The position numbers and the translations under genes are program-made. From a virus, in the IMG/VR virus record IMGVR_UViG_3300031773_000025, positions 1-29,430 of that record: 29,430 bases of DNA. One strand, 5' to 3'. The notes beneath the pieces were generated by a model. The model was not told the origin of the DNA. It saw only the letters and a program-made list of their open reading frames with translations, and made no database searches. Positions within the stretch are counted from its first letter, which is position 1. Each line of letters opens with the position of its first letter. Below are positions 1 to 29,430 of this stretch, one piece after another.

Positions 1-2740
1 TTCTCTTGTCAGGTGAAGAACAATTAGGCGTTCCGTTTCTCCAACACATAAATTGTCTACCATCATTTGGGTCTTCTGCAAAAAATACTACGTTTTGTCC
101 TGCTCCACCAGGAAGCCCTATATTGAATATCGGAAACGGAAATGTTTGCATTGTTTCATCAAATGAAACACTATTAATAGTGTCATCTGAACCTGTTGTT
201 GCACCGTTTGTAAAATCTATATTGTCTCCTATAGCCCAAGCATATAAGCTATCGTAATCTTGAGAAGCTGTAAATCTTTTTTCATAATCATATGTACGAC
301 TACCACATTTACTTCCTCTTCTGTTTCTATGCGCTCTTAGATAAATCTTAACAAGACTACCTGCAGGTACGTCATATGGCTTAAATTCTAATTCACCAGG
401 GTCACCAAAATCAGGATTATCAAGAAATGTACTTACCTCTGTAACACAATAAGTTCCTCTACAATCATCTTTTCTATCAATAAAAGCATTGGGTGGATAA
501 TTCGCAGCAAACCCATTTGGTTTTAATTGCATATACGTTCCACCTAATTGTCCACATGCAGGACTTCCTTCGATTAAATCTCCATCTGCATTTTTCTCAC
601 AAAGAAAATCATCTACCTCTACGCCAAAACCTAAGACCTTTGTAGACGCACAATTTAACACAGCACCATTTGTGTCCGATTTTACAAATAACGTGTCATT
701 GTCTTTTACTTTATCTCTGTTGTCTCCTTCAAGCTTAAAGTATATTAAACCTGTTTCTTCTTCTTGAAAAAATATGTTTGAGTAAATAGTTCTGTATAAT
801 CCTTTTGATTCTTTTATTACAAACTTATACTTAGTTGCCCAATATGGAGGGTAGTTGTTTAACTCAACTCTAATGTTATTTTTTGCTATGGATTTATCAC
901 ATGGTATAAAAACTGTATTGTTTGTATCAACTAAAGCAGTAGTACTTCTTCCATACTCATCCATGTATACAATTCCTATTTCGTAATCTCTATTACTATG
1001 CAAGGATTGTTTTGAACTATCTTTAGCGTATAAACCTGTTGCATCTATAGCTCCTAAATACTCATAAGCAAATACCCCCATTGGTGTTGGAGGGTTTTGC
1101 GTTTGGTCATATTGTTCGAATTTTAAAGCTGGAAAAGTAAAAGAAACTTCATCACTACCCTGTGATGCTTCAATTAATATACCTTGTGGTGTACCTGTTA
1201 TACCGAATCCCACATACTCCCATTCATTTTTAGTAATTACGCCACAATTTAAAAGGTCAGTTTGACTGCTTCCAGAAGTACAATTTGATTGGCAAACATT
1301 AAAACAGCTAGAGTCGGCTATAGGAACAAAGTCGCTAACAGCATTTATAAACTCAGCACTTGTAACTAACGCAAAAACACTTGGATAATCTTGTTGTATA
1401 TTAAAAAGAAAAGTCCTTTCATATGAGTTTTCAGGTTGTGTTCCATCATCATAAGATGCATCTCCACCAAAAGTATTGCTTTCGTAAGAAAAATCAATAC
1501 CTATCTGTGAGCCTGCTACTAAATCTAAACCACTAAAATCAATTGTTGTTTTTGCATTGCTTACATTAACACTACTTCCTTCTATTGTATATGTAACAGG
1601 TGATAGTGTTCCGTCAATTTCGTCTGCAGTAAGATCCGTTGATATTAAAGATAAGTTGTAATCTAAGTATATCTCTTTACCTTGTGAGTTAACAACATCG
1701 TATCCATCAACATAATTACCATACATTAATCTATTACCCATAATTGTTTGAGCCTGAGCCTTTTTAGGCACGTTATCAAACAGTCTAAGCAACTGAGCTT
1801 CAGGTAAAGTTGTAAATATTTTTTTATTAGTAAAAGGTAATGTTTGAAAAGTATCGTCTTGCCAACCTTCATTTATCTTGTTAAATCTTTCAATAACATT
1901 AACCGTTTGACTTGTGCTAAACTTAAATATTACATCTATATCTTTTACATTTTTACCACCTGTATTAAATGTAACATCAGTAGTATTAAACTGATTAAGC
2001 ATTCCATCATTATCATAGGTGTCATAATTTATTTCAAACGGCCCTGGGGTAAAAGCAACTTGACTAAACGGTGATAAAGCTGAATACTCTCCATCTTCAT
2101 ATTGCCATCTATAAGCAAAGCTTAAAAAAAGTTGCTCCATGTAATTTTCACCACCACCTAATTGATAACTATCTAAAGTTGGGGGATTTAATGGAGGGGC
2201 TAATATAACCCCTATATCTTGCTCTGTAATTTCATCAACTGTTGTAACGTTGTTTGGCCTTAAATAAGTTCTATTTACATTTATTTTTCTAGGAGGATTT
2301 ATGTTGTCTGTAAAAAACAATAAGTCACCTATTAAATTAACTCCGTTAACTAAATAATCTTCATCAAAATTTAATATAGAAGTAGATACTACGTGATAAA
2401 ATAAAACAAACGTTCTTGTATTATAAGAAACAATTAAATCTACTTTTCCTGTAGATGACAAAGTATTTGCCTTGTCGTGTACAAACCAATAAATAGTTTC
2501 GTTTGCACCATCTTCATAAGCACCAATACATCTAGCGCTAAGACTTAATGGTTGATTTAAAAATTCTAACTCAACTACTAAATCATTTCCTTTTGAGTTT
2601 TCTACAGCACCTATTTCAGTACCTTCTGTAGAACCCAATCTTACATTTAATGCATCTATGTACTCGCCTTGAGGAACTAGTCGTTCATCAATGCTTTTAT
2701 TCATTCTACCTGCAACAAAGTTCTTTTGAATCTTAGCCAT
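1..2740 (-). CDS. Nozzle/tail-tube-like structural protein, partial (3' end outside window)
   Basis: The reading frame is open without a stop from the ATG at 2740 to the left edge, giving at least 913 residues; the C-terminus lies outside the window. The protein begins MAKIQKNFVAGRMNKSIDER and continues into a stretch (residues ~25-45) about declaring variables (GEYIDALNVRLGST). This start, the great length, the beta-rich composition and the position directly after two ring-like connector genes resemble the nozzle proteins of podoviruses (T7 gp12, P22 gp10, the crAss-phage 'muzzle'). Residues ~495-510 and ~745-800 contain several Cys. The start codon follows the stop of the upstream gene by one base, so the two are likely translated together. 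The role is inferred from context and remembered similarity; no motif proves it. Confidence 0.7.
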   Translation of the reverse strand, partial: MAKIQKNFVAGRMNKSIDERLVPQGEYIDALNVRLGSTEGTEIGAVENSKGNDLVVELEFLNQPLSLSARCIGAYEDGANETIYWFVHDKANTLSSTGKVDLIVSYNTRTFVLFYHVVSTSILNFDEDYLVNGVNLIGDLLFFTDNINPPRKINVNRTYLRPNNVTTVDEITEQDIGVILAPPLNPPTLDSYQLGGGENYMEQLFLSFAYRWQYEDGEYSALSPFSQVAFTPGPFEINYDTYDNDGMLNQFNTTDVTFNTGGKNVKDIDVIFKFSTSQTVNVIERFNKINEGWQDDTFQTLPFTNKKIFTTLPEAQLLRLFDNVPKKAQAQTIMGNRLMYGNYVDGYDVVNSQGKEIYLDYNLSLISTDLTADEIDGTLSPVTYTIEGSSVNVSNAKTTIDFSGLDLVAGSQIGIDFSYESNTFGGDASYDDGTQPENSYERTFLFNIQQDYPSVFALVTSAEFINAVSDFVPIADSSCFNVCQSNCTSGSSQTDLLNCGVITKNEWEYVGFGITGTPQGILIEASQGSDEVSFTFPALKFEQYDQTQNPPTPMGVFAYEYLGAIDATGLYAKDSSKQSLHSNRDYEIGIVYMDEYGRSTTALVDTNNTVFIPCDKSIAKNNIRVELNNYPPYWATKYKFVIKESKGLYRTIYSNIFFQEEETGLIYFKLEGDNRDKVKDNDTLFVKSDTNGAVLNCASTKVLGFGVEVDDFLCEKNADGDLIEGSPACGQLGGTYMQLKPNGFAANYPPNAFIDRKDDCRGTYCVTEVSTFLDNPDFGDPGELEFKPYDVPAGSLVKIYLRAHRNRRGSKCGSRTYDYEKRFTASQDYDSLYAWAIGDNIDFTNGATTGSDDTINSVSFDETMQTFPFPIFNIGLPGGAGQNVVFFAEDPNDGRQFMCWRNGTPNCSSPDKR

Positions 2741-26103: not shown

Positions 26104-26571
26104 ATGAAAATTCGAAGAAAGATTAGCAAGGTATATGCTAGATATCAACCTAAAAGTGATTATCTAAAATATTGGAAAGTCGTAAAACAATGGGCTAAGA
26201 TCAAATACGGATTAGGTACTGCTGATATTGAAATGCTTTTGTTTTTATATAGTGAAGAACTATTTACTCAAAAAGACTTTGAGGAATTCAACGAGATAAT
26301 GTCTTGGGATAAAAACAGATTTCACAATCTATTAAAAGATAAACTAATTGTCGTATGGCGTAAACGTAAAGGGCGTGAGTCTACATTATATGAGCTTGGG
26401 TTTTCTGGTAAGCGCATATGCGCTTCGATTTATAAAAAATTAAACATGGAAGAAACTGTCTCTGAGGACAGAAGACGGAATTCTATGTTTGATCCTAATG
26501 CTGATTATTCTCAAAAAGTTTATCGTAAGATAATTAAAAAAATGAATGCAGAGATAAAAAAAAATCTGTAA
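26104..26571 (+). CDS. Winged-helix-like DNA-binding protein, putative regulator
   Basis: This is the only plus-strand gene recognised, 155 aa. Residues ~38-115 have a winged-helix order: TADIEMLLFLYSEELFTQ, a helix DFEEFNEIM, a recognition-helix candidate SWDKNRFHNLLKDKLI (~67-82), a two-strand wing VVWRKRKGRESTLYELG (~83-99) and a last helix KRICASIYKKLN. This recalls MarR-type proteins. Basic N- and C-terminal arms flank it. The gene faces away from the virion genes and begins beside a palindromic double promoter, so autoregulation or control of the minus-strand genes is likely but unproven. Its stop codon lies inside the stem of the groES terminator. Confidence 0.6.
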   Translation: MKIRRKISKVYARYQPKSDYLKYWKVVKQWAKIKYGLGTADIEMLLFLYSEELFTQKDFEEFNEIMSWDKNRFHNLLKDKLIVVWRKRKGRESTLYELGFSGKRICASIYKKLNMEETVSEDRRRNSMFDPNADYSQKVYRKIIKKMNAEIKKNL

Positions 26572-26920: not shown

Positions 26921-28486
26921 TCATTTTCTTTTCATTGTTACGATTGCATTAGTACTTAATATTGTTGTCGCTACACTTACTGCATTTTTCAACGCATTCT
27001 TTGTAACTTTTGCAGGATCTATAACTCCCATCTTGTACATGTCGCCAAAAACTTTATTTTTTACGTCATATCCAAAATTATGTGGAGCATCTGCACAACT
27101 ACAAATTTTATCTCTAATTTCTTTTATGTTTTCACCTGCATTTGTAAGTATCTGCTCTAGTGGTGAAATCAAAGCTCCATACATAACGTCATTTGAGTCT
27201 CCGTCTCCTAGTTTTTCTGCACATCTCAAAAGAGCTACCCCTCCTCCTGGAAGAATTCCTTCTTCAATCGCTGATTTAACTGCACATACTGCATCTTCTA
27301 CACGATCATACTTTTCTTTCTGCTCAATATCAGAATCAGCTCCAACATAAATCACACCTACAGCTCCTGACAACAATGCAATACGTTCGGTAATGAAATC
27401 TCTTTCTTTCTTGTCCTTATTGTTTTCTTTCTGAACTTTCAACTCAGAAATTCTAGACTTAGCATCTTGAACTTCGTCATTCATAATTACAGTTCCATCT
27501 TTTCCTACAATAATTTTATCAGCATGTCCTAAATCTTCCATTGTCAACATCCCAATGTTGTCGCCCTGCGACTCGCTGAAATATTTTGCACCTATTGCCA
27601 AAGCAATATCACTCATCAGTTCATTTGTTTTGTAACCAAACGATGGTGGTATAATATTACAGAGCTTTAAATTATTCTGAACTACATTCGCTGCTAATGT
27701 GTTTGTCACATTTTGAGAACAGTTCCCAATCACCAAGAGTTTTTTGTTTTGGTTTATTATCGGCTTTAATATATTTTCAATCTGAAGTATATTGGTAATC
27801 TCCATGTCCGTCATTAAAACATATACATCATCTAGTATACATTCATCGTTTCTGTGATTATTAATAAACAGCTTTGAAGAATATCCTCTGTCAATCTTAA
27901 TTCCTTTAGTTACCTCGTAGTATGTTTTGTCTGTCTTACTATTTTCTACTGTAAGTATTCCGTCTTTACCTAACTCTTTGTACGCACTAGCAATCATCTT
28001 TCCTAAAACAGGATCGTTGTTTGCAGATATTGTAGCAACATCACGTAATGTTTTACCAGTTACTTTTTTTGATAAACTGCTTAATGATTTTATTACCTCA
28101 TCTGAATGAGACTTGATATCTCTAATTAATTGTGTGGTATTTATTTCAGGGTTTCTCTGAATCAATTGCATACCTTCCTTGACAATAGCTTCGGTAAGTA
28201 CAATAGCCGTAGTTGTTCCGTCTCCTGCTGAGGTTGCCGTTCGGTCTGCAGCTTCTTTCATCATAGTAATTGCTAGATTCTCTACCGAGTCTTCTAAGTC
28301 AATTGATTTAGCTACAGTCACACCGTCTTTTGTAATTGTAATTCCTCCTCTGTGGTTTGGTGATTCTATTAATACTGTTTTGCCGAGTGGCCCTAATGTA
28401 CTTTTGACAGCTGTTGAAATTTTAGTTATTCCATTTAGCAACTTGTCTCTTCCTTCCTGGTCGAAAGATAATTCTTTTGGATTCAT
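26921..28486 (-). CDS. groEL: Chaperonin GroEL (phage-encoded)
   Basis: This 521-aa protein covers the whole GroEL fold. The equatorial ATP site has KSTLGPLGKTV (residues ~29-38), D54 in ITKDGVTVA and D89 in GDGTTT. The ATP-hydrolysis aspartate is D398 in RVEDAV, the same number as in E. coli, followed by GGGVALLR. The apical domain (residues ~190-375) is divergent from the bacterial one, and the C-terminus ends TMKRK without the Gly-Gly-Met tail. This set suggests an active ATPase ring with altered substrate binding. It lies upstream of groES, the reverse of the usual bacterial order. A TATATTTG -7 box and a repeat array lie in front of it. Its likely clients are capsid or fibre proteins. 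Confidence 0.95.
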   Translation of the reverse strand: MNPKELSFDQEGRDKLLNGITKISTAVKSTLGPLGKTVLIESPNHRGGITITKDGVTVAKSIDLEDSVENLAITMMKEAADRTATSAGDGTTTAIVLTEAIVKEGMQLIQRNPEINTTQLIRDIKSHSDEVIKSLSSLSKKVTGKTLRDVATISANNDPVLGKMIASAYKELGKDGILTVENSKTDKTYYEVTKGIKIDRGYSSKLFINNHRNDECILDDVYVLMTDMEITNILQIENILKPIINQNKKLLVIGNCSQNVTNTLAANVVQNNLKLCNIIPPSFGYKTNELMSDIALAIGAKYFSESQGDNIGMLTMEDLGHADKIIVGKDGTVIMNDEVQDAKSRISELKVQKENNKDKKERDFITERIALLSGAVGVIYVGADSDIEQKEKYDRVEDAVCAVKSAIEEGILPGGGVALLRCAEKLGDGDSNDVMYGALISPLEQILTNAGENIKEIRDKICSCADAPHNFGYDVKNKVFGDMYKMGVIDPAKVTKNALKNAVSVATTILSTNAIVTMKRK

Positions 28487-28509: not shown

Positions 28510-28517
28510 CAAATATA
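28510..28517 (-). promoter_or_regulatory. groEL promoter -7 box (TATATTTG)
   Basis: The minus strand reads TTTAATTTTTGTATATTTGC, with TATATTTG fitting the Bacteroidota -7 consensus 23 bases before the groEL ATG. The preceding TTTTTG is shared with other promoters of the window. No separate -33 TTG is seen. Confidence 0.6.
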
Positions 28518-28623
28518 CAAAAATTAAAGGACATGACGAATGTCGATTTTATGTTTCTCTATATATATATATAGTTATTATAGTATTTATATTTTTTATT
28601 ATCTATATAATTAGAATAAAAAC

Positions 28624-28721
28624 CGACATAATCGACATAAAAGATAGTTAATAGTTAGAAATCAGTTAGTTACAAGAAAAATAATCGACACCAAATCGAC
28701 ATAGGCCGACATAAAACGACA
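28624..28721 (+). repeat. CGACA direct-repeat array upstream of groEL
   Basis: CGACA occurs at 28624, 28633, 28686, 28697, 28707 and 28717, mostly as [TC]CGACAT. The last four are spaced 11, 10 and 10 bases apart, about one helical turn. An inverted copy TGTCG lies at 28541. Such phasing suits cooperative binding of a regulator, or iterons of an origin. Confidence 0.65.
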
Positions 28722-28722
28722 C

Positions 28723-28752
28723 AAAAAAGGGGCTAACCGAAGTTAAACCCCT
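28723..28752 (-). terminator. Rho-independent terminator with UUCG tetraloop
   Basis: The minus strand has AGGGGTTTAAC-TTCG-GTTAGCCCCT followed by six T (GTGT afterwards). The stem has a small internal mismatch, and the loop is the very stable C(UUCG)G. It ends the small-gene transcript coming from 29143-28789. Confidence 0.85.
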
Positions 28753-29154: not shown

Positions 29155-29296
29155 CAAAATTAATATCACTTATAAAGAGGCTCTGGGTAATAATATAAAA
29201 TACAGCGATCATCGATCATTGGAAAGCGATTTTTTTTTCGATAGGGGGGGTACTTTTAAAAGCCGTTTTTGTTGTTGCATCTTTTTAGCTTTTTGC

Positions 29297-29396
29297 TACA
29301 CCCCACACCCCCACACCACCACCACCACCCACGCCCCACGCCCCCACGCCATGCCACGCACCCCACACACACACCCAAAACAACACCTTTGCCCCT
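29297..29396 (+). repeat. C/A-rich low-complexity tract (G-rich on minus strand)
   Basis: About 100 bases consist almost only of C and A, with ACC triplets, CACGCC units and runs of 3-5 C. The minus strand carries at least seven G-runs of three or more, several separated by 3-base CGT or TGT linkers, so it can form G-quadruplexes. This contrasts sharply with the AT-rich surroundings. A sequencing or assembly artefact near a contig end is an alternative. Confidence 0.7.
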
Positions 29397-29430
29397 TTAT
29401 TTTTATTTTACACAATACTAAACAAAGGGT

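Follow-up and report, generated by a model that had tools for sequence, protein, structure and literature searches.

The window analysed here, a 29,430-nucleotide stretch of viral DNA (IMG/VR record IMGVR_UViG_3300031773_000025), is one end of a phage genome and carries portal, large terminase, tail and groES/groEL genes, all on the minus strand. Upstream of groEL lies a phased array of CGACA words, which raises the question of what reads these words and what the array is for. A sequence-only reading had named three candidates: a site for a cooperative regulator, the iterons of a replication initiator, or a nucleoid-protein site. For lytic phages, and above all for uncultured ones, the replication origin is seldom known. 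We propose, at a probability of roughly three in four, that the CGACA words are the iterons of a phage replication origin, each bound by the C-terminal winged helix of the phage primase-helicase. Three observations put the iterons ahead of the other two candidates: co-variation of the word with the residues by which the primase-helicase would read DNA, an AT-rich stretch between opposed sets of words, and a relative in which the module stands away from groEL.

The array and its module

CGACA occurs on the plus strand at 28624, 28633, 28686, 28697, 28707 and 28717, giving six direct copies with successive spacings of 9, 53, 11, 10 and 10. The six copies, the 11/10/10 phasing of the last four and the inverted copy (TGTCG at 28541) are thus all as first described. 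Over the whole window CGACA is found 7 times and TGTCG 9 times, with the array as the densest cluster. When the 309-bp intergenic region was shuffled 5000 times with its dinucleotides preserved, seven CGACA/TGTCG copies were never reached (0/5000), nor was a phased chain of four of any non-AT 5-mer (0/5000). With the choice of word left uncontrolled, some 5-mer reached a count of seven in 121/5000 shuffles, so that phasing is a stronger signal than copy number. The CGACA array is real and beyond chance.

Four AGTTA copies pointed out between the words are indeed present (28646, 28653, 28664 and 28668), but carry little weight alone, since AGTTA occurs 107 times in the window on both strands. 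The copies at 28664 and 28668 make up a conserved element, AATCAGTTAGTTA (28660-28672), which resembles the IHF consensus (Table 1). Of 28 relatives, 23 have it between the word clusters at the same place and strand, whereas the genome-wide background is 0.04-0.07 matches per 300 bp. Judged by its sequence this conserved box is a putative IHF site, and to that extent the nucleoid-protein proposal survives.

Read along the groEL strand, the module and its neighbours follow one another as small gene, terminator, four words, IHF-like box, two words, 78 bp of AT-rich DNA, opposed word, TATATTTG and groEL. The functional unit runs from about 28530 to 28751 and is larger than the 28624-28721 originally marked out. 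No other 78-bp stretch of the window is as rich in AT as its spacer, and in relative G010 the module spacer likewise exceeds the rest of the genome in AT content. The terminator has a folding energy of -17 kcal/mol (z -3.8). By its consensus, TATATTTG is presumably a Bacteroidetes-type -7 element. A comparison with Rfam gave no match. The GC skew, proposed as a check for an origin, does switch near the module, but the direction of transcription switches there too; the skew is therefore confounded and was set aside as evidence for an origin.

Table 1. Coordinates of the module and of neighbouring genes in the window
Feature	Position	Strand	Remark
155-aa small basic protein, helix-turn-helix-like by eye	26104..26571	+	opposite late genes, just after groES
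groEL	26921..28486	-	first gene downstream of module
groEL -7 promoter element TATATTTG, Bacteroidetes-type (presumed)	28510..28517	-	downstream of module
Opposed word, CGACAT on groEL strand	28530..28545	+	inverted TGTCG 28541-28545 and degenerate second GACAT at 28530
AT-rich spacer, 10% GC, proposed DNA-unwinding element	28546..28623	.	78 bp
Word 6, TATGTCG	28624..28628	-	9 bp after word 5
Word 5, TTATGTCGAT	28633..28637	-	starts two-word set
IHF-consensus-like element TAACTAACTGATT (consensus YAANNNNYTGATW)	28660..28672	-	holds the last two AGTTA copies
Word 4, TGTCGAT	28686..28690	-	11 bp after word 3
Word 3, TATGTCGAT	28697..28701	-	10 bp after word 2
Word 2, TATGTCG	28707..28711	-	10 bp after word 1
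Word 1, TGTCG on groEL strand	28717..28721	-	starts four-word phased set
Intrinsic terminator, UUCG-loop stem then U-run	28723..28751	-	serves upstream small genes; end adjoins word 1
Small conserved gene, 68 aa	28789..28995	-	upstream of module, ended by terminator

Other elements were seen in and around the module. On the groEL strand, TATATATAGGGAAA and CAGGGAAAA recur in the spacers of some relatives (e.g. L005, L013 and L018) and look like a transcription start region. A low-complexity C-rich tract (CCACCACC, CACGCC) at 29290-29420 of the window adjoins the early/late junction; its counterpart is nearly identical in G010, is built on another unit in G007 (GGGTGTAA/GTGCAA) and on GTCGC/GTGTG in MW202828. 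The small gene 29212-28997 contains an in-frame ATG that is preceded, at a distance of a few bases, by another Bacteroidetes-type promoter (TTTTGTATATTTG; minus strand, 29165-29142); so close a promoter suggests a very short leader.

Conservation and change of the word among relatives

A scan with the GroEL protein returned 18 viral contigs. Among annotated relatives the closest is Caudoviricetes sp. MW202828.1 (60,850 bp, circular), and Flavobacterium Elemovirus phages are more distant; the groEL region of the latter was dropped as a comparison, groEL having a different setting there. Conservation of the repeats and their spacing had been proposed as a check, and the array is indeed retained in position in close relatives, which have five to six words at near-equal distances from the groEL start together with one or two opposed words (in several relatives as two clean copies, CGACATNCGACAT). 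In the TGTCG-word relatives examined in full, the array is one dense cluster and the sole phased chain of four TGTCG. The distant MW202828 has the same word as the window.

Other relatives retain the terminator, array, AT-rich spacer and opposed word, with the word spelled otherwise. Upstream of groEL the alternatives include ATGCTTA, ATGCTGAC/ATGTTAAC and ATTCCAC, and the words listed for more distant relatives are ATGCTTA, ATGCTCA, ATTCCAA, ACGTCGA and ATGTTGA; word calls are rough in the weakest arrays. In distant relatives the opposed copies change spelling along with the array word. Scattered sites that switch word together point to a single protein as the reader of all of them. In G043 the array was not found near groEL, on a contig that starts about 1 kb before that gene.

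A second module at the primase-helicase gene

The array's own word recurs in relatives upstream of the primase-helicase gene. (In the window's genome this gene lies outside the record, and the primase-helicase sequences are those of relatives.) There, a terminator is followed by two words set 10 bp apart, then by some 90 bp of AT-rich sequence and by an opposed word that overlaps or adjoins the primase start codon. In G011 this site bears the genome's own word, as it does in G054 and G055; both places thus switch to one new word per genome, as a trans-acting reader predicts. The IHF-like box of the primase-side module is mirrored in about 11 distant relatives. The primase-side module, the smaller of the two, may be either a second origin or an autoregulation site.

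This arrangement bears on the possibility that the words are operators through which the C-terminal part of the primase-helicase, or something related to it, switches groEL and the late genes as well as its own gene, with no origin involved. Both modules do occupy promoter-region positions, one between a terminator and the promoter-like TATATTTG before groEL and the other overlapping the primase start codon, and initiators often autoregulate. However, a groEL operator should stay beside groEL across relatives, and in G034 the complete module stands in front of an unrelated 99-aa gene, with groEL 2.7 kb away. The mirrored box is likewise unlike a fixed-geometry promoter, and an operator has no need of so extreme an AT-rich stretch separating its opposed words. 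We therefore consider operators without an origin unlikely, and the link of the array to groEL is probably one of neighbourhood only. As initiators often control their own genes, origin and operator roles could both hold.

Proteins tracking the word

Eighty primase loci, together with another 24 groEL loci from those genomes, yielded 28 usable genomes with both. Word similarity was taken from enriched 5-mers in the ~300 bp upstream of groEL, with no word selected by hand, and was compared with protein similarity window by window after overall relatedness had been removed. In this unsupervised scan of 677 windows across primase and GroEL, the mean r was 0.007 (sd 0.11). The best windows were the primase wing at 776-796 (r 0.42; Mantel p 0.0005) and its recognition helix at 757-776 (r 0.35); primase window 201-216 was also high (r 0.35), without an explanation. 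Among 1123 variable single columns of the two proteins, Arg788 of the primase ranked first (max-statistic p 0.004), followed by GroEL V102 (r 0.45, p 0.06), which is without explanation, and primase Thr761.

Residue 788 matches the fifth base of the word in every genome: Arg goes with C (ATGTC) in 19/19 and Lys with T (ATGTT, ATGCT) in 9/9. This agreement (28/28, p 1e-7) includes six matched changes on the tree, and kinship among the genomes leaves only six to eight independent changes. In further loci, where words upstream of primase only were used, 26 of 27 clear calls agreed (p 9e-6), as did 6/6 independent pairs (p 0.03); a clear call is a C/T count difference of two or more. Before this threshold was applied, the new Arg loci comprised 20 C-rich, 7 tied and 6 T-rich cases, and the new Lys loci 7 T-rich, 1 tied and 1 C-rich. 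The one exception among the clear calls, L087, has no module at the primase-upstream place in the examined sequence. Where the words are most unusual, the lineages also differ at helix residues 761/764, which are Ile/Asn with ATGCTTA, Gln/Asn with ATGCTCA and Met/Thr with ATTCCAA, and Ile is found with ACGTCGA. Among the proteins tested, only the primase-helicase C-terminal winged helix clearly tracks the word at the level of sequence co-variation.

The words might instead be read by a separate phage regulator, either the 155-aa protein encoded opposite groES or a 96-aa protein resembling DnaA domain IV. Both candidates are conserved in most relatives and look DNA-binding, and the DnaA box begins TTAT, like TTATGTCG. 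Neither tracks the word: the best window had r 0.15 (rank 87/753) for the 155-aa protein and r 0.22 (rank 64/722) for the 96-aa protein, against 0.41-0.47 for the primase C-terminus in the same comparisons, in which the word region of G056 was empty; with that region filled in, the outcome for primase and GroEL was unchanged. A separate regulator is accordingly very improbable. Least credible of all is a role in partition or packaging, with the array as a centromere or a pac/cos site to which a phage ParR/TubR-like protein or the small terminase binds. ParR and TubR centromeres are also arrays of ~11-bp repeats, and each genome has just one such dense cluster, but the co-variation points to the primase-helicase and a second module lies at its gene.

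The candidate proteins have some features of their own. The 155-aa protein is found in all full relatives compared, Elemovirus included; it is named a repressor protein in MW202828 and belongs to PHROG 17028, function unknown. The stand-alone 96-aa protein (G007 C1:10572-10862, homologues L158-L178) is present in 20 of 22 relatives searched, and many copies have an HSS/HST-I-HG motif like the box-reading helix of DnaA. A third, 189-aa protein has a clear DnaA C-terminal domain in G007 (C1:3284-3853; PF08299, E 2e-9); it was rejected as the array's explanation, being clear only in G007 with a weak partial match in G011.

Domains and fold of the primase-helicase

The primase-helicase has the Pfam domains BT4734-like_N, PriCT_1 and DUF5906, the N-terminal primase module being BT4734-like/PriCT_1. 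AlphaFold2 modelled its C-terminus as a winged helix (mean pLDDT 83) with a helix at 760-775 (60-75 of the fragment) and strands at 780-784 and 787-792 (80-84 and 87-92), and it is in these elements of the model that the co-varying residues sit. The helicase core of the full-length model fell below 50 pLDDT and was excluded from the fold search. In a Foldseek search of the C-terminus against the PDB, many winged-helix proteins were returned, none significant; the P4 origin-binding domain (1ka8) ranked 12th with E 1.0. A primase profile search against the PDB gave no solved relative and no match to P4 alpha. The modelling thus supports winged helix as the fold class of the C-terminus, with membership of a family unsupported.

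Discussion

Our results are consistent with a model in which the C-terminal winged helix of the primase-helicase would bind each word through its recognition helix (~757-776) and wing (Arg788). The 78-bp AT-rich stretch, with its four plus two phased words to one side and its one or two opposed words to the other, could then be melted for the loading of helicase rings, and the DNA would probably be bent at the IHF-like box that separates the word clusters. We infer physical binding, melting and initiation at the array. The wider proposition is that a large, mostly uncultured group of Bacteroidetes-type podophages has two PICI/P4-like iteron origins, with a wing/helix code in the primase-helicase setting origin identity and hence replication-compatibility types readable from sequence; we regard the odds on this as about even.

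An origin and its initiator are here predicted jointly from genomes alone, along with a residue-to-base rule (Arg788 with C, Lys788 with T), so that the match of reader and word would be readable from genome sequences. The pattern suggests a way in which phage origins may switch specificity with their layout retained.

The closest likeness is to the Pri-Rep origins of PICI/SaPI satellites, in which two iteron sets flank an AT-rich region, a layout stated to be found in no other bacterial replicon (PMC6092414). Here too there are 4+2 words, 78 bp at 10% GC and an opposed word, also in relatives, and the layout described as unique to satellite islands would now extend to free phages of ~60 kb. 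PICI iterons are specific to the cognate initiator allele, and in our sequences the word co-varies with primase-helicase residues 788, 761 and 764, as such specificity might predict. The PICI origin, in contrast, lies immediately 3' of the initiator gene, whereas the modules here are 5' of the primase gene and 5' of groEL, the latter at the early/late junction, and have an extra IHF-like box.

In satellite phage P4, iterons occur at two places, ori and crr. The P4 alpha protein combines primase and helicase with a C-terminal winged-helix origin-binding domain, which is named in PMC10516667. A C-terminal winged helix is also modelled for the phage primase-helicase, whose Pfam domains may join primase and helicase likewise, the helicase core being modelled at low confidence. 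The two proteins nevertheless have no recognisable homology (no profile match; Foldseek 1ka8, E 1.0), and their N-terminal primase modules differ.

Iteron plasmids of the pSC101/R6K type with IHF-assisted origins have iterons, an AT-rich unwinding region, an IHF-type bend site and opposed copies near a promoter, and in all four features they resemble the phage module. Their RepA/pi-type initiator recruits the host helicase, whereas the initiator proposed here is itself a primase-helicase. In geminiviruses the iteron word and a short Rep segment change together between lineages (PMC12548392), as in the phage case; Rep acts in rolling-circle replication of single-stranded DNA genomes and is unrelated in protein and chemistry. 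By analogy the phage module may work like the PICI and P4 origins, of which, given its position relative to the initiator gene and the mismatch in sequence homology, it is better described as a variant than as a member.
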